From Microbacterium phyllosphaerae (GTDB lineage: Bacteria > Actinomycetota > Actinomycetes > Actinomycetales > Microbacteriaceae): DNA of 64,000 nt. Shown piece after piece: positions 8,651-37,532 of the stretch. Made by a program: the position numbers and the translations under genes. Location: positions 3,286,001 through 3,350,000 of the forward strand of contig NZ_JAGIOA010000001.1 in NCBI RefSeq assembly GCF_017876435.1. Direction: 5' to 3'. The stretch's first letter is position 1. Each line of letters starts with the position of its first letter. The notes under the pieces are model-generated. The model was not told the DNA's origin. It was given only the letters and a program-made list of their open reading frames with translations, and did no database searches.

Positions 8651-10027
8651 TCAGCGCGAGATGTACGAGAGCAGGTCCTGCCGGGTGAGCACGGTGTGCG
8701 GCTTGCCGTCCATCGTCACGAGAAGCGCGTCGACGTCGGCGAGCGCCGCGCGGGCCTGCGCGATCGGAGCATGGATGCCGATCAGCGGCAGCCGCTCCCC
8801 CACGTGAGCGCCCACGGCATCCGCCGGTTTCGCGTCTCCGCGGAAGAGCAGGTCGAGCAGCCCCTTCTCGTCCACCGTGCCGACGACCTCGCCCATCATC
8901 ACAGGAGGCTCGGCGCTCAGCACCACCAGCTGCGAGACGTCGTACTCGGTCATCATGCCGATGGCCTCGAGCACGGTGTCGGTCGGGTGCGCATGCACGA
9001 GATCGGGGATGCCCTCTCCGAGTCGCGAGGAGCGCGCGGTCAGCACGTCGGCGACCGTCTCGCCCTCCTCCACCTCGCTGAATCCGTACGACCGCATCCA
9101 TCCGTCGTTGAAGATCTTGCTCAGGTAGCCGCGACCGCCGTCGGGCAGGAGCACCACCATCACGGCATCCGCGGGCAGCTCCCGGGCGACGCGCAGCGCG
9201 CCGACCACGGCCATACCGCTCGACCCGCCGACGAGGATGCCCTCTTCGCGGGCGAGGCGGCGGGTCATCGCGAACGACTCGGCGTCGCCGACCGCGACGA
9301 TCTCGTGCGGGATCTTCGGGTCGTAGGCGCCGGGCCAGATATCCTCGCCGACCCCCTCGACGAGATACGGACGCCCGGTGCCGCCGCTGTAGACGCTGCC
9401 CTCGGGGTCGATCCCGACGATGCGCACGCGGTCGTCCGAGATCTCTCGCAGGTACCGTCCGGTGCCCGTGATGGTGCCGCCGGTGCCGACGCCCGCGACG
9501 AAGTGGGTGATGCGCCCGTCGGTGTCGCGCCAGATCTCGGGGCCCGTGGTCTCGTAGTGGCTGCGCGGGCCGTTGGGGTTCTCGTACTGGTTGGGCTTGA
9601 ACGCCCCGGGGATCTCACGAGCGAGCCGATCGCTGACGCTGTAGTACGACTCCGGGCTGTCGGCTGCGACCGAGGTCGGAGTGACCACGACCTCGGCACC
9701 GTACGCGCGGAGGACGTCGATCTTGTCCTCGCCCACCTTGTCGGGCAGCACGAAGACGCACTTGTAGCCGCGCTGCTGGGCGACGAGTGCCAGCCCCACC
9801 CCGGTGTTGCCGCTCGTCGGCTCGACGATCGTGCCACCAGGCTTCAGCTCACCCGATGCTTCGGCGGCGTCGATGATGCGCGAGGCGATGCGGTCCTTCG
9901 CGGATCCGCCGGGGTTGAGGTATTCGAGCTTCACGAGCACCGTGCACTCCACGCCCTCGGTGACGTGCTGGAGCTTCACGAGGGGCGTGTCGCCGACGAG
10001 GTCGACGATGGAGTCTGCGTACTTCAT
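8651..10027 (-). CDS. cbs: cystathionine beta-synthase
   Basis: The 458-residue protein has an O-acetylserine-sulfhydrylase-like PLP domain (PLP lysine K44 in PGGSAKDR, phosphate loop TSGNTG at 71-76) and, from about residue 330, a C-terminal pair of CBS domains. This fits cystathionine beta-synthase (serine plus homocysteine to cystathionine) better than plain cysteine synthase. The frame extends upstream to 10087, but ATG at 10027 matches the family N-terminus and is preceded at 6 nt by TACGCT with no ribosome-binding site, so it is probably leaderless. With the metB-like gene 76 bp downstream it could complete reverse transsulfuration. Confidence 0.9.
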   Translation of the reverse strand: MKYADSIVDLVGDTPLVKLQHVTEGVECTVLVKLEYLNPGGSAKDRIASRIIDAAEASGELKPGGTIVEPTSGNTGVGLALVAQQRGYKCVFVLPDKVGEDKIDVLRAYGAEVVVTPTSVAADSPESYYSVSDRLAREIPGAFKPNQYENPNGPRSHYETTGPEIWRDTDGRITHFVAGVGTGGTITGTGRYLREISDDRVRIVGIDPEGSVYSGGTGRPYLVEGVGEDIWPGAYDPKIPHEIVAVGDAESFAMTRRLAREEGILVGGSSGMAVVGALRVARELPADAVMVVLLPDGGRGYLSKIFNDGWMRSYGFSEVEEGETVADVLTARSSRLGEGIPDLVHAHPTDTVLEAIGMMTEYDVSQLVVLSAEPPVMMGEVVGTVDEKGLLDLLFRGDAKPADAVGAHVGERLPLIGIHAPIAQARAALADVDALLVTMDGKPHTVLTRQDLLSYISR

Positions 10028-10033
10028 GTTCAC

Positions 10034-10039
10034 AGCGTA
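10034..10039 (-). promoter_or_regulatory. -10 element (TACGCT) of cbs, leaderless
   Basis: TACGCT ends 6 nt before the ATG at 10027 and decides that start over in-frame codons further upstream. Confidence 0.6.
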
Positions 10040-10116
10040 CGTGCGACGATGCCGCGACCGGGGTTGTGTTGCACCCGGCCGCGGCATCGTGTGTCACAGA
10101 TGTCGGCGTGAACCGA

Positions 10117-11076
10117 TCAGCCCTTCGTCGAACCCGCCAGGAGTCCGCGCACGAAGTAGCGCTGCAGCGAGAAGAACACGATCAGCGGCACGATGATCGA
10201 CACGAACGCACCGGCGGTGAGCAGGTACCAGCCCTCACCACGACCGGTGATCTCGGCGAGCACCTTGGTGATCGGCGATGCGGCGCCGTCGGCGAACACG
10301 AGTGCGACGAGCAGATCGTTCCAGACCCAGAGGAACTGGAAGATCGCGACCGACGCGATCGCCGGCATCGTCAGCGGCAGCACCACCCGGAAGAAGATCT
10401 GCCCACGAGAGGCACCGTCGACGCGCGCGGCCTCGATGATCTCGCCCGGGATCTCCGACATGAAGTTGTGCAGCAGGTAGATCGCCAGCGGCAGCGCGAA
10501 CATCGAGTGCGCGATCCACACCTGCGCGTAGCCGCCCGAGATGTCGAGCCCCTCCGTCACCTGGATCCCGAAGAGGTTGATGCCCCGCGAGAACGAGGAC
10601 AGCAGCGGAACGAGAGCCATCTGGATCGGCACGATCTGCAGCGCGAACACGAAGATGAACAGCGCGTTGCGACCCTTGAACTCGATCCACGAGAACGCGT
10701 ATGCGGCCATCGCGGCAATCATCAGCGGGATGACCGTGGCGGGGATCGTGATCACGATGGAGTTGAAGAACGACTCCAGGATGGTCAGCTGCGTGGTGCC
10801 CGACTGCAGCACGGCCGCGTAGTTGTCGAGGGTCAACTGCGGGTTGGTGAAGAAGGTCCACCAGCCGGTGGTCTCGATCGCATCCCTCTCACGGAACGAC
10901 GAGATGAAGAGTCCGAGCGTCGGGATCGTCCAGAGGACGGCGATGACGATCGAGGCGACTGTCGCCCACGGCCGACTGAGGCGCTTGCGCGCTCGCCCTG
11001 CGGAGGCTTCGAAGCGTCCGGCGGTGGTGATCGCCCTCGTGCTCTGGCCGGTGTCTGAGTTCACGGTGTCGGTCAT
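10117..11076 (-). CDS. carbohydrate ABC transporter permease, MalG type
   Basis: The 319-residue inner-membrane permease has six predicted helices and the cytoplasmic EAA loop EAARVDGASRGQIFFRVVLP that docks the ATPase. It is the last gene of the binding protein - MalF-type - MalG-type operon and overlaps the MalF-type gene by 4 bp, implying coupled translation. No ATPase gene is present; in Actinobacteria such importers commonly share one MsiK-type ATPase encoded elsewhere. The sugar is not known. Confidence 0.92.
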   Translation of the reverse strand: MTDTVNSDTGQSTRAITTAGRFEASAGRARKRLSRPWATVASIVIAVLWTIPTLGLFISSFRERDAIETTGWWTFFTNPQLTLDNYAAVLQSGTTQLTILESFFNSIVITIPATVIPLMIAAMAAYAFSWIEFKGRNALFIFVFALQIVPIQMALVPLLSSFSRGINLFGIQVTEGLDISGGYAQVWIAHSMFALPLAIYLLHNFMSEIPGEIIEAARVDGASRGQIFFRVVLPLTMPAIASVAIFQFLWVWNDLLVALVFADGAASPITKVLAEITGRGEGWYLLTAGAFVSIIVPLIVFFSLQRYFVRGLLAGSTKG

Positions 11077-28262: not shown

Positions 28263-28914
28263 TGCGGTCGAGCCTCCTCTCGAGGGCGCTCTGCCCGAAC
28301 GACAGCACCAGACAGATCACCCAGTACACCAGCGCCGCCGCAAGATAGACCACCATGAAATCGAGGGTGGCCGATGCGATCTGCTGCGCGACCTTGAACA
28401 GCTCGGTGACGAGGATCAGGGATGCCAGCGAGGTGTCCTTGACGAGCGAGATGAACGTGTTCGACAGCGGCGGCACCGAGACCCGAGCGGCCTGCGGGAG
28501 GATGACGCGGGTCAGAGTGCGTGTCCGATTCATCCCGACCGTGTACGCCGCCTCCCACTGCCCCTTCGGCACCGATTGGATCGCAGCACGGACGACCTCG
28601 GCTCCGTACCCGCCGACGTTGAGTGACAGGGCGATGATGGCGCTCGGCCACGGGTCGAGCTTGAGCCCGATCGACCCGAGGCCGTAGAAGATCACGAACA
28701 GCTGCACGATCATCGGCGTTCCGCGGATCACGGAGATGTAGAACCGCGCGATGCCCGACACGATCGGGATGACCGAGATCCGCATCAGGGCGACGCCGAT
28801 CGCGATGACGAGCCCCAGCGCGAACGACACGAGCGCGAGCGGCACCGTCACCGTCACCCCCGCCAGGGCGATGGGCCCGAGTGACGAGAGGAACAGCTGC
28901 CAGGGGTTCTCCAT
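28249..28914 (-). CDS. polar amino acid ABC transporter permease
   Basis: The 221-residue HisM/GlnP-type permease has the family loop RGTPMIVQL and the EAA-like segment [20 protein letters not shown] that contacts the ATPase. As it is the only permease gene in the operon, it probably works as a homodimer. It begins 3 bp after the binding-protein stop. Confidence 0.95.
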
Positions 28915-29900: not shown

Positions 29901-30590
29901 TCAGATGGCGTTGACATCCAGCGGGATGCCGGGGCCGAACGTGGTCGACACCGCACCCTTCTGGATGTAACGGCCCTTCGAGCTCGACGGCTTGAGGCGG
30001 ACGATCTCCTCGAGCGCTGCGCCGATGTTCTCGTCGAGCTGCTCGGCCGAGAACGACGACTTGCCGACGACGAAGTGCACGTTGGCGTGCTTGTCGACGC
30101 GGAACTCGATCTTTCCGCCCTTGATCTCCTCGACGGCCTTGGCCGTGTTGGGGGTCACGGTGCCGGTCTTCGGGTTCGGCATGAGTCCACGCGGACCCAG
30201 GACCTTTCCGAGACGACCGACCTGGCCCATGAGCTCCGGGGTCGAGACGGCCGCGTCGAACGCGGTCCAGCCTGCGGCGACCTTCTCGATGAGCTCGGCG
30301 CCGCCGACCTCATCTGCACCTGCGGCGATCGCTGCCTCGGCCGCGGGGCCGGTGGCGAAGACGATGACGCGGGCGGTCTTACCGGTGCCGTGGGGCAGGA
30401 TGACGGTGCCGCGCACCATCTGGTCTGCCTTGCGGGGGTCGACCGAGAGCTTCAGCGCGACCTCGACGGTCGAGTCGAACTTCGACGAGCCGGTCTCCTT
30501 GGCGAGGGCGACTGCCTCGGTGGGAGTGTAGAAACGGTCTGCCTCGATCTTCTCGGCGGCAGCCTTGTAAGCCTTGGACTTCGTAGCCAT
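29901..30590 (-). CDS. rplA: 50S ribosomal protein L1
   Basis: The 229-residue L1 is recognisable from start ([20 protein letters not shown]) to the RNA-binding segments ([35 protein letters not shown]). It binds 23S rRNA at the stalk and in many bacteria represses its own operon. ATG at 30590 matches the family; the open upstream extension overlaps rplK and is not coding. Second gene of rplK-rplA, 11 bp after rplK. Confidence 0.98.
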
Positions 30591-30601
30591 GATTATTCTC
30601 C

Positions 30602-31033
30602 TCAGCCCTCGACCGTGATGCCCATGGAACGGGCGGTGCCGGCGATGATCTTCGAGGCAGCCTCGATGTCGTTCGCGTTCAGGTCGGCCTGCTTGGTCTC
30701 GGCGATCTGACGGACCTGGTCCTTGGTGATCTTCGCGACCTTGACCGTGTGAGGCGTCGACGAGCCCTTGGGCACGCCGGCGGCCTTCTTGATGAGCTCC
30801 GCGGCCGGCGGGGTCTTCAGGATGAACGTGAAGCTGCGGTCCTCGTAGACGGTGATCTCGACGGGGATGACGTTGCCGCGCTGCGACTCGGTCGCGGCGT
30901 TGTACGCCTTGCAGAACTCCATGATGTTGACGCCATGCTGACCGAGCGCGGGGCCGATCGGCGGCGCCGGGTTGGCTGCACCGGCGTTGATCTGAAGCTT
31001 GATCAGGCCGGTCACCTTCTTCTTCGGTGCCAT
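30602..31033 (-). CDS. rplK: 50S ribosomal protein L11
   Basis: The 143-residue L11 has the N-terminal Pro-rich thiostrepton-binding domain ([20 protein letters not shown]) and the C-terminal rRNA-binding domain with the usual GTARSMGI end. ATG at 31033 follows AAGGAAGAGG. It is separated from nusG by a terminator, so rplK-rplA has its own promoter. Confidence 0.98.
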
Positions 31034-31143
31034 ATCCTCTTCCTTTCATCGAACGGATGCGGGTGCATCCGCTCTCCCGCGAACCCGGCATCTCCGGGCT
31101 GCGGTCGTCTGCGCGCACGCCGAAGCGGCACACAAACCACATA

Positions 31144-31149
31144 AGTCTA
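31144..31149 (-). promoter_or_regulatory. -10 element (TAGACT) of rplK-rplA
   Basis: TAGACT reading leftward lies about 110 bp before rplK. The -35 position is not convincing. The hexamer is the same as at tRNA-Ser. Confidence 0.45.
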
Positions 31150-31175
31150 CCTGATCCGAAGGCATGCCTCATACG

Positions 31176-32846: not shown

Positions 32847-32852
32847 TAGGCT
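32847..32852 (+). promoter_or_regulatory. -10 element (TAGGCT) of the HSP90-TPR operon
   Basis: TAGGCT lies 30 nt before the GTG at 32883, leaving a short leader with the GGAGGGA ribosome-binding site. No good -35 was seen. Confidence 0.45.
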
Positions 32853-32882: not shown

Positions 32883-34706
32883 GTGAGCGCTGACGTGCAG
32901 CAGTTCCAGGTGGACCTGCGCGGGGTCGTCGACCTTCTGAGTCGCCACATCTACTCGAGCCCTCGGGTCTACCTGCGGGAGCTGCTGCAGAACGCCAGGG
33001 ACGCGATCACGGCCCGACGCGAGGTCGACGGCGAGGGCGGACGCATCCGCATCACCCCGCTGACCGAAGCCTCGGGCGAGTTCGTCCTGCGCGACGACGG
33101 CGTGGGTCTGACCGCCGACGAGGTGGCCGACCTGCTCGCCACCGTCGGGCGCAGCTCGAAGCGGGACATCTTCGACCTGCCCCGCAGCGATTATCTCGGC
33201 CAGTTCGGCATCGGACTCCTCAGCTGCTTCATGGTCGCCGACACGATCGTGATCCGCTCCCGCAGCGCACGCGGCGGCTCGGCCGTCGAGTGGACGGGCA
33301 GCGCCGACGGCACGTTCCGCGTGGTCGAGATCGACGACGACCTGCCGATCGGCACGAGCGTGCACCTGGTGCCGCGGTTCGACGCCGATGATCTCCTGCG
33401 CCCCGCAGCCGTGCGGGCGCTCGCGACGACGTTCGCCGAGTTCCTCCCCGTGCGGGTCACGCTCGACACCCCGGTCGGCGACGTCGAGGTGACCCGGCGC
33501 GCACCCTTCCTCGACGTCGCCGAGAACATCGACGACGCGGTGCAGTACGGGCGCGATCTCCTCGGCGCCTCCCCCCTCGATGCGATCGAGCTCTCGGAGC
33601 CGGCCACCGGCACCCGCGGACTCGCCTACGTGCTCCCGTACGCTCCCCCGCCCGGCGCCCGACAGGCGACGCGCATGTACCTCGGCCGGATGCTGCTCGG
33701 CGAGCGCGTCGACGACGTGCTTCCGGAGTGGGCGTTCTTCGTGCGCGCCGTCGTCGATTCGACCGGCCTCGCCCCGACGGCGAGCCGTGAATCGCTCGTC
33801 GACGATGCGGCGCTCGAGCGCGTGCGCGAGCAGTTCGGCGCCGGCATCCGTCGCTGGGTCCTCGAGCTGGGCCTGCGCGAGCCGCACCGGCTCGCCCAGT
33901 TCGTCGCGATCCATGAGGTCGGCCTCAAGTCGCTCGTGCGACACGACGAAGAGCTCGCGCGGTTCATCACCCGATGGCTGACCCTCGAGACCACGCACGG
34001 CACCCTGCGCATCGGCGACCTCGTCGAGCGGTACCCGCACGTGCGCTTCGCCCCGTCGGTCGACGAGTTCCGCCAGGTCGCCGGCATCTCGCCGAGCTCG
34101 GAAGTACTGGTCAACGGCGGTTATCTGTACGACGCCGACCTCGTGCGGATGCTGCCCGACCTCTACCCGCACGTCACGGTCGAACTCGTCGACGTCACCG
34201 GCGAGCTCGACCGCCTCGACCCTCCTCCCCTCGATGACCGCGATGCGGCGGTGGCACTCGAGGCTCGCGCAGGCGCGGTGCTCACGGCGTCCGGATGCTC
34301 GGTCACGGTGCGCTCGATCGACCAGCCCCAGCTCGCCGCCCTCTACGTCGCCGACCCCGAGGTGCTCCGCCGCATCGACCGGGGCCGCACCAAGGGCATC
34401 ACCGGTTCGCTGTGGGGCGGAGTGCTCGACCGCATCGACTCGACGCTCTCGTCATCCCGCGACGACGACCTGAGCGCACGGCTCTGCCTGAACTGGTCGA
34501 ACCGGGTCGTACGCGCCCTCGTCCGGGTGCAGGACGACGCGGTGTTCGCCCGCACGGTGCAGCTGCTCTACATCCAGGCGCTCCTCGCCGGGCACCACCC
34601 GCTCTCCGATGCGGACCGCACCCTGATGACCACGGCACTCACCGATCTCGTCTCGCTCTCGGCCGGCATCGAAGAGGACTCGGTCCCCTTCGACGACGCG
34701 CTCTGA
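32883..34706 (+). CDS. divergent HSP90-family (HtpG-like) ATPase
   Basis: The 607-residue GHKL ATPase has all HSP90 motifs: N-box ELLQNARDAI (33-42; Glu33, Asn37, Asp40), DDGVGL (71-76), the lid segment ATVGRSSK and GQFGIGLLS (106-114). The middle domain keeps LPEWAFFVRAVVDSTGLAPT followed by ASRESL, whose Arg303 matches the catalytic Arg of HtpG SREILQ. ATP hydrolysis is thus likely. The C-terminal part is short and unlike HtpG, and there is no MEEVD-type tail. GTG at 32883 follows GGAGGGA. A TPR gene starts 27 bp downstream. Client proteins are unknown. Confidence 0.88.
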   Translation: MSADVQQFQVDLRGVVDLLSRHIYSSPRVYLRELLQNARDAITARREVDGEGGRIRITPLTEASGEFVLRDDGVGLTADEVADLLATVGRSSKRDIFDLPRSDYLGQFGIGLLSCFMVADTIVIRSRSARGGSAVEWTGSADGTFRVVEIDDDLPIGTSVHLVPRFDADDLLRPAAVRALATTFAEFLPVRVTLDTPVGDVEVTRRAPFLDVAENIDDAVQYGRDLLGASPLDAIELSEPATGTRGLAYVLPYAPPPGARQATRMYLGRMLLGERVDDVLPEWAFFVRAVVDSTGLAPTASRESLVDDAALERVREQFGAGIRRWVLELGLREPHRLAQFVAIHEVGLKSLVRHDEELARFITRWLTLETTHGTLRIGDLVERYPHVRFAPSVDEFRQVAGISPSSEVLVNGGYLYDADLVRMLPDLYPHVTVELVDVTGELDRLDPPPLDDRDAAVALEARAGAVLTASGCSVTVRSIDQPQLAALYVADPEVLRRIDRGRTKGITGSLWGGVLDRIDSTLSSSRDDDLSARLCLNWSNRVVRALVRVQDDAVFARTVQLLYIQALLAGHHPLSDADRTLMTTALTDLVSLSAGIEEDSVPFDDAL

Positions 34707-34733
34707 CCCCCACTCCGTTCGAAGGAACCCCGC

Positions 34734-37532
34734 ATGGCACGTCCGCAGAAGCGCTTCACGCAGCTCATCGAGGAGATCGACCGCACCCCGTGGGGCCCGG
34801 CGGAACAGGCACTGGTCGCCGAGGCCGTCGCCCTCGCCGTCGAGCTGGGCGACGAGCAGCTCGAGTACGAGGCCCGGATGCGCCAGACCGCGTCGGCGAA
34901 CATGAACGGCGCGACCGACGTCATGCTGAACTCGTTCGCGTGGTGCCTCGCCCGGCACGACGCCGACCCGCAGCGCTTCCCCGCCGACCTCGAGTACGGC
35001 GGCGCCGACCTGATGTGGCAGTTCAAGTGGATGGCCTCGTCGCTGCGCTCGTCGCCCGCCTTCTCGCTCGATCAGATCGCGGCGGTGCTCGACGACATGG
35101 AGGAGCACTACCGCGCGGCAGGGCTCGGCATCAGCGGCGTGCTCACGGCGCGATTCGAGGATGCCTGGGACGCCGGTCGCATCGATGAGGCCGAGGCTCT
35201 GCGCGTGCAGCTGGAGGCCACTCCCCGCGACGACCACAGCCACTGCGACGCCTGCGGCCGCAGCCAGGTCGCGGGCTTCTTCGCCGAGACCGACCGAGAT
35301 GCCGAGGCCATCCGGCTCGTCGAGGAGATGCTCGAGGGCGGATTCTCGTGCGGAGAGGAGCCCGAGCACGCGCTCTCCCGCGTTCTCGTGCCGTACCTCC
35401 GAGCCGGGCGCCCTGATGACGCGAAGAGCGCGCACCTGCGCAGCTATCGCCTCGCGAAGGACAACCCCGACAACCTGCGCATCGTCGCGAACAACATCGT
35501 GTTCTCGGCACTGACCGGCAACGAGGCACGCGCTCTCGCGCAGATCGAGCGCCACATCGGGTGGCTCGCGCACGACGGACTCAACGTCGACGCGCACTTC
35601 GCCGCCCTCGCCGCGTTCGCCTTCGCGCTCGACCGCGTGACGGCGGCCGGCCATGCCCACACGCCCGTGCGCGGCGCCGACTCCCCCGCGCTCATCGTGT
35701 TCTTCGAAGACCATGAGGGCCCCTGGGGTGCCGCCGACCTGGCCGCGGCCGCCTGGGCGTCCGCCGAGCGCATCGGAGCCGAGTTCGACCACCGCGACGG
35801 CACAGACGGCCACGCCCGTGCACTCGTGCGCCTCCGGGCTCTCGCCGACGAGAGCTACGACGTGCCCATCCGATCGGATGCCTTCGTCTCGTCCCCCGAC
35901 AGCACGACGCCCGCTGACGCGGACGCGTGGTTCGACCGGGTCATGGACCTCGCACAGTTCGGAGCGGAGCACGAGACGCTGCAGGCGCTCCCCCACGCCC
36001 TGGCCGTGGAGGATCCGTCGAAGCTCGCTCAGCTCATGTCGATGCGCCTCGGCATCCTGATCGCCCTCGACCGCGCCGACGAGGCCGCAGAGCTCCTCCC
36101 CGCACGGATCGACGCGCTCCGCGCCGCGGGGCTCGACGTGCAGGCAGACCTCGAGCAGCGGCTGGGCCTCGCGACGTTCGGGCTCGACACCCCGGAGGCC
36201 GCGGCAGCCCTCGAAGACGAGCTGGCGACCGCAGCATCCCTTCCCGCGTGGTCGCGCGGAGACCTCGCGATCAGCCGAGCCTCGCTGCACATGCACGCGG
36301 ACGAGCCCGGTGCAGCGCTCGACATGGCCGAGATCGCCGCTCGGGCGTTCGCGGAAGCGGGAGACGTGCGGCTGTCGAACACCACCACGCTCGTCGCGAT
36401 CGCCGCGGTGCTGCAGAAGGGCGACATCGAGGCGGCCGCCGCCCTGCTGGATCGCTTCCTCGACCAGGACGACCTCAGCATCGGGCACCGCGCGCAGGCG
36501 CTGCAGACCCGCGCCAGGGTGCGCGGCGGCAGTGAGGCGTTCGTGGAGGGTGCGGCGGATGCCGACGAGGCCACGCGCCTGCTCGCCGGCCTCGGCGCGA
36601 CCAAGGCACTGGCGGCGGCGCATCTGCTCGCCGGGGCGCTCTGGGAGGACGCCGGCGACCCCGAGAAGGCCGTGACCCGGTATCGCGTCACGTCTCGGCT
36701 CGTCGCCCAGGAGGGCGGCGATCAGGCGGGAGCCGACTTCCGCCTCGCCAGGGCCATGCTGGCGGCGGGTGACGCCGAGGTCGCGGCCGAGCTCTTCGGC
36801 CAGGTGCTCGAGAGCGAGGAGCAGGCCGAGGTCCACGCCGCGTCGCGGGCGATGACGGCATCTCTCCTCGCTCGCGCGCTGGCCGCTTCGGGCGAGTTCG
36901 GGCAGGCCGTCGGCGCCTTCGGATACGCGGCGGAACTGTTCGGCGAGGCCGAGGAGCACGCAGACCAGGCCGTGGCTCTGACCGAGCGTGCGAAGATCCT
37001 CGCCCGCTTCGACGAGAACGATGAGGCGATCGAGACGCTGGAGGCGGCATCCGAGATCGTGCGCAAGGCACCGGACGCCGTCGGCGCTCTCGCCGACGTG
37101 CTGCACAACCTGGGCCAGGCCTACGGGGCGCGGCAGGATGATCGCGCCTTCGCCCTCTTCGACGAGGTCGCAGCGCTCGCGCAGGAGCACGGGGCCGGCT
37201 GGCTGCTCGCCGACGTCACCGACTCGCGCGGCCGTGCGCTCGCCCAGTTCGGACGCACGGAGGAGGCGGTGGCCGCCGCGCTGACCGCCGCCGACGGGTT
37301 CGCCGCGATCGGGGATGCCGGTTCGGCCGGGGGCTCCGAGCTGTTCGCCGCCCGCCTGCTCGCCGGCGACGACCGTGCCGCGGATGCCGTGCCGATCTAC
37401 CGCAGCGCGCTCGAGCACGCCGCCGAGGTCCCCCCTCTTCGGCAGGTCTCAGCCCTCGAGCTGGGCACCGTGCTCGAGTCGCTGGGCCGACACGTCGAGG
37501 CCGCCGAGGTGCGCGCTCTGCTCGACGCCTGA
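34734..37532 (+). CDS. large tetratricopeptide-repeat protein, partner of HSP90-like ATPase
   Basis: A 932-residue soluble, almost all-helical protein rich in Ala, Glu, Asp, Leu and Arg. Helix pairs with the TPR pattern (for example ALAQIERHIGWLAHDGLNVD, AFGYAAELFGEAEEHADQAV, AIETLEAASEIVRKAPDAVG) are spread through residues 20-930, clearest after 560. An N-terminal unit contains a CDAC pair (Cys171, Cys174) in a His-rich stretch (DDHSHCDACGRSQ), a possible metal or redox site. No signal, membrane segment or enzyme domain is seen. The gene follows the HSP90-like gene by 27 bp with GAAGGA, so they probably act together, TPR proteins being classic HSP90 partners. Confidence 0.8.
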   Translation: MARPQKRFTQLIEEIDRTPWGPAEQALVAEAVALAVELGDEQLEYEARMRQTASANMNGATDVMLNSFAWCLARHDADPQRFPADLEYGGADLMWQFKWMASSLRSSPAFSLDQIAAVLDDMEEHYRAAGLGISGVLTARFEDAWDAGRIDEAEALRVQLEATPRDDHSHCDACGRSQVAGFFAETDRDAEAIRLVEEMLEGGFSCGEEPEHALSRVLVPYLRAGRPDDAKSAHLRSYRLAKDNPDNLRIVANNIVFSALTGNEARALAQIERHIGWLAHDGLNVDAHFAALAAFAFALDRVTAAGHAHTPVRGADSPALIVFFEDHEGPWGAADLAAAAWASAERIGAEFDHRDGTDGHARALVRLRALADESYDVPIRSDAFVSSPDSTTPADADAWFDRVMDLAQFGAEHETLQALPHALAVEDPSKLAQLMSMRLGILIALDRADEAAELLPARIDALRAAGLDVQADLEQRLGLATFGLDTPEAAAALEDELATAASLPAWSRGDLAISRASLHMHADEPGAALDMAEIAARAFAEAGDVRLSNTTTLVAIAAVLQKGDIEAAAALLDRFLDQDDLSIGHRAQALQTRARVRGGSEAFVEGAADADEATRLLAGLGATKALAAAHLLAGALWEDAGDPEKAVTRYRVTSRLVAQEGGDQAGADFRLARAMLAAGDAEVAAELFGQVLESEEQAEVHAASRAMTASLLARALAASGEFGQAVGAFGYAAELFGEAEEHADQAVALTERAKILARFDENDEAIETLEAASEIVRKAPDAVGALADVLHNLGQAYGARQDDRAFALFDEVAALAQEHGAGWLLADVTDSRGRALAQFGRTEEAVAAALTAADGFAAIGDAGSAGGSELFAARLLAGDDRAADAVPIYRSALEHAAEVPPLRQVSALELGTVLESLGRHVEAAEVRALLDA

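Follow-up and report, generated by a model that had tools for sequence, protein, structure and literature searches.

The Hsp90C-ND gene pair of Microbacterium phyllosphaerae, a candidate Hsp90 and co-chaperone machine in bacteria

To our knowledge, bacterial Hsp90 is usually taught as working without TPR co-chaperones of the eukaryotic type. An ortholog of Hop is described as missing from bacteria in the part of the source available to us (PMC7688965). Two neighbouring genes of Microbacterium phyllosphaerae bear on this view. They lie in a stretch of 64,000 nucleotides (hereafter the window) from a genome that consists of a single contig of 3.73 Mb, and a preliminary description had seen in them a divergent HSP90 and a giant TPR protein that might form a dedicated machine. 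All parts of the operon located below, and its promoter-like element, are on the forward (+) strand of the window.

The locus and its Hsp90

The two-gene arrangement of the preliminary description is confirmed. The first ORF (32883..34706, GTG start, 607 aa) encodes a member of NF010683 ('HSP90 family protein'), hereafter Hsp90C, and the second (34734..37532, 932 aa) encodes the partner protein, made of an ND domain and a C-terminal TPR array. The 27-nt spacer that separates them (34707..34733) bears a Shine-Dalgarno-like GAAGGA. Upstream and divergent from the pair are tRNA-Trp, secE (read from the sequence) and nusG, while a gene encoding a thiamine-pyrophosphate enzyme is located downstream and is convergent. 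Since both genes are on the same strand, separated by 27 nt and flanked by divergent and convergent genes, they presumably constitute one bicistronic unit. Comparison of 14 aligned Microbacterium upstream regions gives weak evidence for a -10-like TAGGCT (32847..32852) ahead of the operon and reveals no sigma-H-like promoter by pattern. Furthermore, a sigma-70 scan upstream of the operon returned no match, the operator scan found no CIRCE heat-shock operator and the only HAIR match (at 28660) is at chance level. Among the matches listed, the named proteins closest to those of the pair are mostly from Microbacterium, and the search with the Hsp90 reported 4673 relatives in all.

The window Hsp90 reaches 683 bits against NF010683 (cut-off 455) over residues 5-595 and is therefore a full-length member of this family, whereas it obtains only 148 bits against the canonical HtpG model NF003555, under the cut-off of 371. 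It is the only Hsp90 gene found in this genome: the HtpG model returns the window gene alone, searches with the HtpG and NF010683 profiles found no ordinary HtpG, and the other NF010683 match is weak, partial and located inside a 1549-aa frame. In a tree, 21 Hsp90C proteins (clade supports of 0.90 and 0.999) are split from 14 canonical HtpG, with two distant plasmid proteins in between. A clade apart from canonical HtpG is also what has been published, in the parts of the papers available to us, for hsp90C or HTPG group C. Chen et al. 2006 (PMC1525184) describe there this group as having short variable regions and as present in Actinobacteria and Firmicutes, and report that S. coelicolor has two HtpG copies of 638 and 615 aa belonging to different groups. 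As the length of S. coelicolor HTPG2 (615 aa) and the statements of Chen et al. fit, we infer that the window Hsp90 belongs to this paralogue. The study of Press et al. 2013 (PMC3708813) was restricted to hsp90A and omitted hsp90B and hsp90C, and the available parts of both papers do not mention a partner of hsp90C. The description of the NF010683 model (PRK14083) gives a family name without function and does not include the constant partner; PRK14083 is named in one paper found, on fish Hsp genes. The Hsp90 half of the pair is thus already known, as an annotated family and, by inference, as a published paralogue.

All the residues of E. coli HtpG that we take to be catalytic (E34, N38, D80 and R336) have their counterpart in Hsp90C. 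The N-box helix (32976..33005) carries E33 and N37, equivalent to E. coli E34 and N38, the DDGVGL nucleotide-binding motif (residues 71-76, 33093..33110) carries D71, equivalent to D80, and the catalytic-loop arginine is R302 (33786..33788), equivalent to R336; these four residues are conserved without exception in 21 Hsp90C proteins and in 14 canonical ones. In addition, the GQFGIG ATP-lid motif (residues 106-111, 33198..33215) aligns with E. coli HtpG G121-G126, its Q107 being replaced by R in at least one member of the Hsp90C family. The ATPase motifs are thus intact, as first described, with the single correction that the arginine had been numbered 303.

The C-terminal region had been described as short and unrelated to that of HtpG, a view against which the profile comparison speaks. 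With 607 aa, Hsp90C comes close in length to E. coli HtpG (624 aa), and a C-terminal dimerisation-helix motif (LCLNWSNRVVRAL...LLYIQALLAGHHPL, 34482..34616) is detectable by a collinear HHalign match to the canonical C-terminus. The comparison relied on a forced global alignment followed by local profile alignment with shuffled controls, one of the 80 Hsp90 sequences, which has a stop in the frame taken, being dropped from the global alignment. For family residues 525-607, the match covers positions 622-667 of the canonical actinobacterial HtpG profile (684 positions), which is the collinear place (score 35.7, E 1.1e-4, probability 57%), and residues 480-607 score 36.3 versus at most 20.8 in ten column-shuffled versions. 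In local alignment against the profile of 20 canonical HtpG proteins, residues 1-230 and 231-440 match with E-values of 2e-33 and 1e-10, respectively, and residues 340-480 alone give no detectable match. Moreover, most of the HtpG model is covered by the Listeria member (positions 3-601 of 614) and by the Paenibacillus member (2-595). Hsp90C shares with canonical bacterial HtpG the N domain, the large middle domain, the catalytic arginine and apparently the C-terminal helix motif. Concerning the extreme C-terminus, the reported absence of a MEEVD tail extends to the family: EEVD is found in the last 15 residues of none of 79 members, and the ten tails inspected are variable.

Linkage of Hsp90C with its partner and distribution of the pair

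The association of the two genes was analysed in several samples. The first consists of the 80 named loci that rank best among at least 568 relatives, fetched by Hsp90 alone via two peptide patterns; 49 of these loci belong to Microbacterium (32) or Actinomadura (17). The partner is located downstream of Hsp90 in 79 of these loci, and the 80th (L076) is cut off by a contig edge 86 nt past the Hsp90 stop. This count comes from an iterated partner HMM trained on the same downstream segments that it scored; a single-sequence partner search is independent of the HMM, but its rough gene caller missed or merged genes. A candidate start of the partner overlaps the Hsp90 stop in 45 of the 80 loci and lies within -45 to +100 nt in 30 more. 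The partner is farther away in only four loci (L066, L079, L094 and L099), with another gene between Hsp90 and ND in L079 and L099.

In a sample of 149 genomes from the order, Hsp90C exceeds the cut-off in 25 genomes (26 copies) and the alignment of 20 partners (A2) finds a match in 26. Both are present in 23 genomes, whose 24 Hsp90C copies are all linked to the partner within 1.5 kb. The two genomes that have Hsp90 only according to A2 (G434 and G435) encode adjacent proteins, downstream and upstream respectively, with weak ND matches (3e-17 in several stretches and 7.8e-9). Hence, linkage concerns 26 of the 26 copies if these weak matches are included and 24 of 26 if they are not. The partner-only genomes are G311, where the match is N-terminal and lies in a protein of 1451 aa, G313 (C-terminal part, at a contig edge) and G359 (C-terminal part only). 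In the phylum sample (296 genomes), 12 copies exceed the cut-off in 10 genomes and ND adjoins all 12, while G204 and G171 have ND without Hsp90C. Conversely, ND occurs in only one (G204) of the 28 genomes of this sample in which all Hsp90 matches are under the NF010683 cut-off, these Hsp90 being read from their scores as canonical HtpG; this distinguishes Hsp90C from HtpG, as does its score. Fisher tests that ignore kinship give p values of 1.2e-21 for the order sample and 5.4e-17 for the phylum sample. Furthermore, the pair is kept in Paenibacillus, Listeria and a planctomycete. The Hsp90C-ND pair is thus real, present in three phyla and nearly obligate in the samples examined. In none of these samples are the two genes mostly unlinked, the outcome that would have told against the pairing initially proposed. 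Such near-constant adjacency, from soil actinobacteria to Listeria and a planctomycete, suggests a dedicated two-part machine for protein handling.

Mere old synteny devoid of functional coupling would also keep two genes together, and the mirror-tree correlation between Hsp90C and partner (0.94), being confounded by common descent, is consistent with coupling but says no more. The two trees share 32 supported splits (of 46 and 48) and conflict for seven splits per tree, L094 being left out. However, the linkage lasts across three phyla and, among the 51 loci that were clustered, no third gene is general to the loci, the largest neighbour cluster spanning 11 genus groups. This makes simple synteny an extremely improbable explanation.

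The pair is accessory, since it is found in 25 of the 149 order genomes. The site next to tRNA-Trp, secE and nusG is occupied by it in the window as well as in G257, G385 and G399, all from one genus; this site is empty in G371 and contains other genes in G357, which lacks the pair. In the plasmid collection, the pair is also present on three large records from Streptomyces. Among IMG/VR viral contigs, none of 34 pattern matches was confirmed as a relative, and a phage origin was therefore rejected. An unverified 6.6-kb 'Bacteriophage sp.' scaffold from human faeces (MT837560, L136) bears an Hsp90C-ND pair; in our judgement, this scaffold is probably bacterial. Likewise, a Microbacterium-like partner and Hsp90 recorded under Penicillium discolor and Bradysia odoriphaga (P0101 and P0185) are likely to result from bacterial contamination of eukaryotic assemblies.

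A patchy distribution, the pair being either there or cleanly missing at one site, is what an anti-phage or conflict system could also display. PADLOC gives only partial ATPase-domain matches for Hsp90C (TmtA and REase_II), with no model covering the protein, and none for the partner. The neighbourhood was scanned with PADLOC on 112 proteins from 30 loci (113 were listed, the one at 29904-31172 of the window being left out); at E 1e-8, it yields ten families with one member each, a figure to which no control set corresponds. In the Pfam tally of neighbours (first 25 of 156 families), aldehyde dehydrogenase comes first with six members and YbjN second with four. On the basis of these 30 loci, a defence island was rejected. 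Besides, a Pseudanabaena plasmid (ABRG53a, L147 6213-11795) encodes a distantly related 877-aa Hsp90-like protein, next to genes for a ThsB-like TIR protein and for a TPR protein; its C-terminal tail weakly resembles CAP12/Pycsar-TIR (E 0.001, under the Pfam cut-off), and it is a possible conflict-system cousin of Hsp90C. This relative speaks for a role in conflict, whereas the PADLOC results and the lack of a confirmed IMG/VR relative speak against it, and we consider such a role very improbable for the pair.

The ND domain, the TPR array and YbjN

The part of the partner that is constant corresponds to its first ~380 residues, both in A2 and in a second alignment (A5), for which 24 ND domains were taken from Actinomycetota, Bacillota and Planctomycetota. 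In the window, this ND domain (aa 1-382, 34734..35879), delimited by A5 and by HMM matches in Listeria and Paenibacillus, belongs to no Pfam family and is probably made of helical repeats. Its PDB matches are designed PPR proteins, a TPR protein and a designed helical protein (best E 3.5e-9), consistent with an alpha-solenoid. Eleven residues are invariant in A5: F68, G148, A153, D166, C171, C174, C206, P210, A230, D352 and R354. Three of them, D166, C171 and C174 (35229..35255, 24 of 24 sequences), delineate a putative metal or redox site, the two cysteines being the CDAC pair already seen in the 932-residue protein; C206 (35349..35351) is a third conserved cysteine. The domain is closed by an FDxR signature (F351-D352-x-R354, 35784..35795), whose F351 is conserved in at least 90% of sequences. 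In L095, a member of A2 outside A5, all three cysteines are lost together, as expected if they form one site.

The giant TPR protein proposed as partner was only partly right. A TPR array is present at the C-terminus, its best TPR_12 match (aa 745-818, 36966..37187; 38.1 bits for a cut-off of 30.1) being the only Pfam match above cut-off in the window partner. However, this array is optional and ND occurs alone in short partners from Paenibacillus (L134, 353 aa), a planctomycete (L099, 369 aa), Dermabacter (L079, 382 aa) and two other loci (L120, 383 aa; L121, 368 aa), which excludes a giant TPR protein as the essential partner. In Listeria, two tandem ND genes encode proteins of 324 and 320 aa as annotated, both 'hypothetical protein'. 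According to gene numbering, one of them is probably lmo0941, a 'hypothetical protein' gene for which the available part of one paper reports signals of selection (PMC6901971). In this locus (L133), the tandem genes are followed by a gene of the SMI1/KNR4 (SUKH) family (9882-10628).

Other arrangements were also observed. In L116 (G353), a gene for a TPR protein of 380 aa comes after Hsp90C and precedes two tandem ND-TPR genes, and match coordinates suggest the same order in G395, G409 and G423. The 1451-aa ND relative of G311 (L115, 5788-10143), found without Hsp90C, contains a long low-complexity Pro/Ala-rich linker, and its Cys site is not recognisable on reading. Finally, plasmid pXVH29 of Xanthomonas vasicola (L148, 7947-12170) encodes an Hsp90-like ATP-binding protein that is only distantly related (277 bits against NF010683, less than the cut-off). 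The next gene specifies a TPR protein of 774 aa in which no clear match to ND is seen; the Hsp90-TPR theme may thus recur.

Some loci encode a possible third component. YbjN-domain genes (PF10722) are located at the Hsp90C locus in six genera (L118, L126, L127, L128, L129 and L130), i.e. at six of the 110 Hsp90-bearing loci scanned, and were found at none of the other 104, a count that excludes L075a, L075b and L130b, which are not YbjN. Pfam confirms seven of the YbjN proteins encoded at these loci, and 10 of the 13 YbjN genes of the six genomes sit there. The YbjN stop and a candidate Hsp90 start overlap by 4 nt in L129 and L130. Six further genomes were searched: YbjN is located elsewhere in G376 and G338, which have the pair, is present in four copies in G204 and was not found in G000, G427 and G400. 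The genome of the window yielded no YbjN. In G204 (L145, 7532-9609), which lacks Hsp90C, a YbjN gene is followed by an ND-YbjN fusion in one open frame. The available parts of the literature indicate that YbjN has a fold like that of type III secretion chaperones, that YbjN proteins are thought to work through protein contacts (PMC5398634) and that, in multicopy, E. coli ybjN suppresses a temperature-sensitive mutant (PMC3181261).

The conserved CxxC...C of ND, the Pfam entry for YbjN as a putative sensory regulator and the protein contacts attributed to YbjN would all suit a signalling switch: ATP would drive Hsp90C between conformations, ND would sense redox state or metal, and the pair would not serve as a general chaperone. 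Nevertheless, among recognised neighbour families (the largest cluster being outside these), no regulator other than YbjN is recurrently linked to the pair, and the pattern search gave no sigma-H-like promoter. We therefore view this explanation as improbable.

The main rival of a machine is that the ND/TPR protein would be a dedicated client, i.e. the sole substrate that Hsp90C folds or gates, for instance a large signalling scaffold. One-to-one linkage fits a chaperone-client pair equally, ND is found alone in a few genomes, and this model accounts for the linkage nearly as well. However, partners reduced to ND (~320-380 aa), tandem ND genes and the association with YbjN fit a machine subunit better, and no Pfam effector domain was found in the few partners scanned. 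A dedicated client appears unlikely to us on balance, while deserving more credit than a switch.

A putative Hsp90C machine and its relation to known systems

We favour the hypothesis, with a probability of about 0.6, that the two genes specify a dedicated chaperone machine built on Hsp90C, in which the predicted ND solenoid is an obligate co-chaperone. Hsp90C would be a GHKL ATPase dimer running the usual Hsp90 clamp cycle. Since no common C-terminal peptide was found in the family (EEVD absent, tails variable), the alpha-solenoid would dock on the Hsp90 body, through its N, middle or C domain, rather than on a tail peptide. The Cys3(+Asp) site of ND may serve structure or sensing, and ND would present clients or set the rate of the Hsp90C cycle. 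The client-binding surface would be enlarged by the TPR array, where there is one, and by YbjN subunits in certain lineages. What is observed is the linkage of the genes, their conservation, the intact ATPase residues, the signature of ND, the association with YbjN and one ND-YbjN fusion; that Hsp90C dimerises and binds ND, that ND binds metal, and that the pair acts as a chaperone on clients and has a physiological role are predictions.

Several observations count against such a machine: ND exists without Hsp90C in G311, G204 and G171; YbjN is missing from most loci and from the genome of the window, and is encoded elsewhere in G376 and G338; a gene intervenes in L079 and L099; the three cysteines are lost in L095; and signs of heat-shock regulation (CIRCE, HAIR, sigma-H-like pattern) were not found. 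As for the dedicated HSP90-TPR machine of the preliminary description, the linkage strongly supports a pair made of an Hsp90 and a repeat protein, but its constant element is ND rather than TPR and its Hsp90 family was already annotated. No earlier description of the Hsp90C-ND pair was found in titles and beginnings of abstracts of the open-licence literature, and one may exist elsewhere.

The pair resembles eukaryotic Hsp90 and its TPR co-chaperones (Hop, FKBP51) in that an Hsp90 is associated with a helical-repeat protein. It differs from them in that the MEEVD tail is absent and that ND, rather than a recognised TPR clamp, is the invariable element; we do not claim a shared ancestry. In the SGT1/RAR1 system, a TPR protein and a Cys-rich metal-binding helper dock on the Hsp90 body. 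This parallel with the pair is an analogy only.

More tentatively, and at a little less than even odds, the pair may represent an ancient second bacterial Hsp90 system, in which hsp90C would work only with the Cys-site solenoid ND and, in some lineages, with YbjN, as a three-part ATP-driven machine loading clients via the Hsp90 body. According to the available part of the paper, hsp90C had previously been set aside in a genome-wide functional study (PMC3708813), and a near-obligate genomic partner across three phyla provides a concrete and testable handle on this paralogue. If this hypothesis is true, co-chaperone-dependent Hsp90 would not be a eukaryotic invention and would have arisen at least twice.
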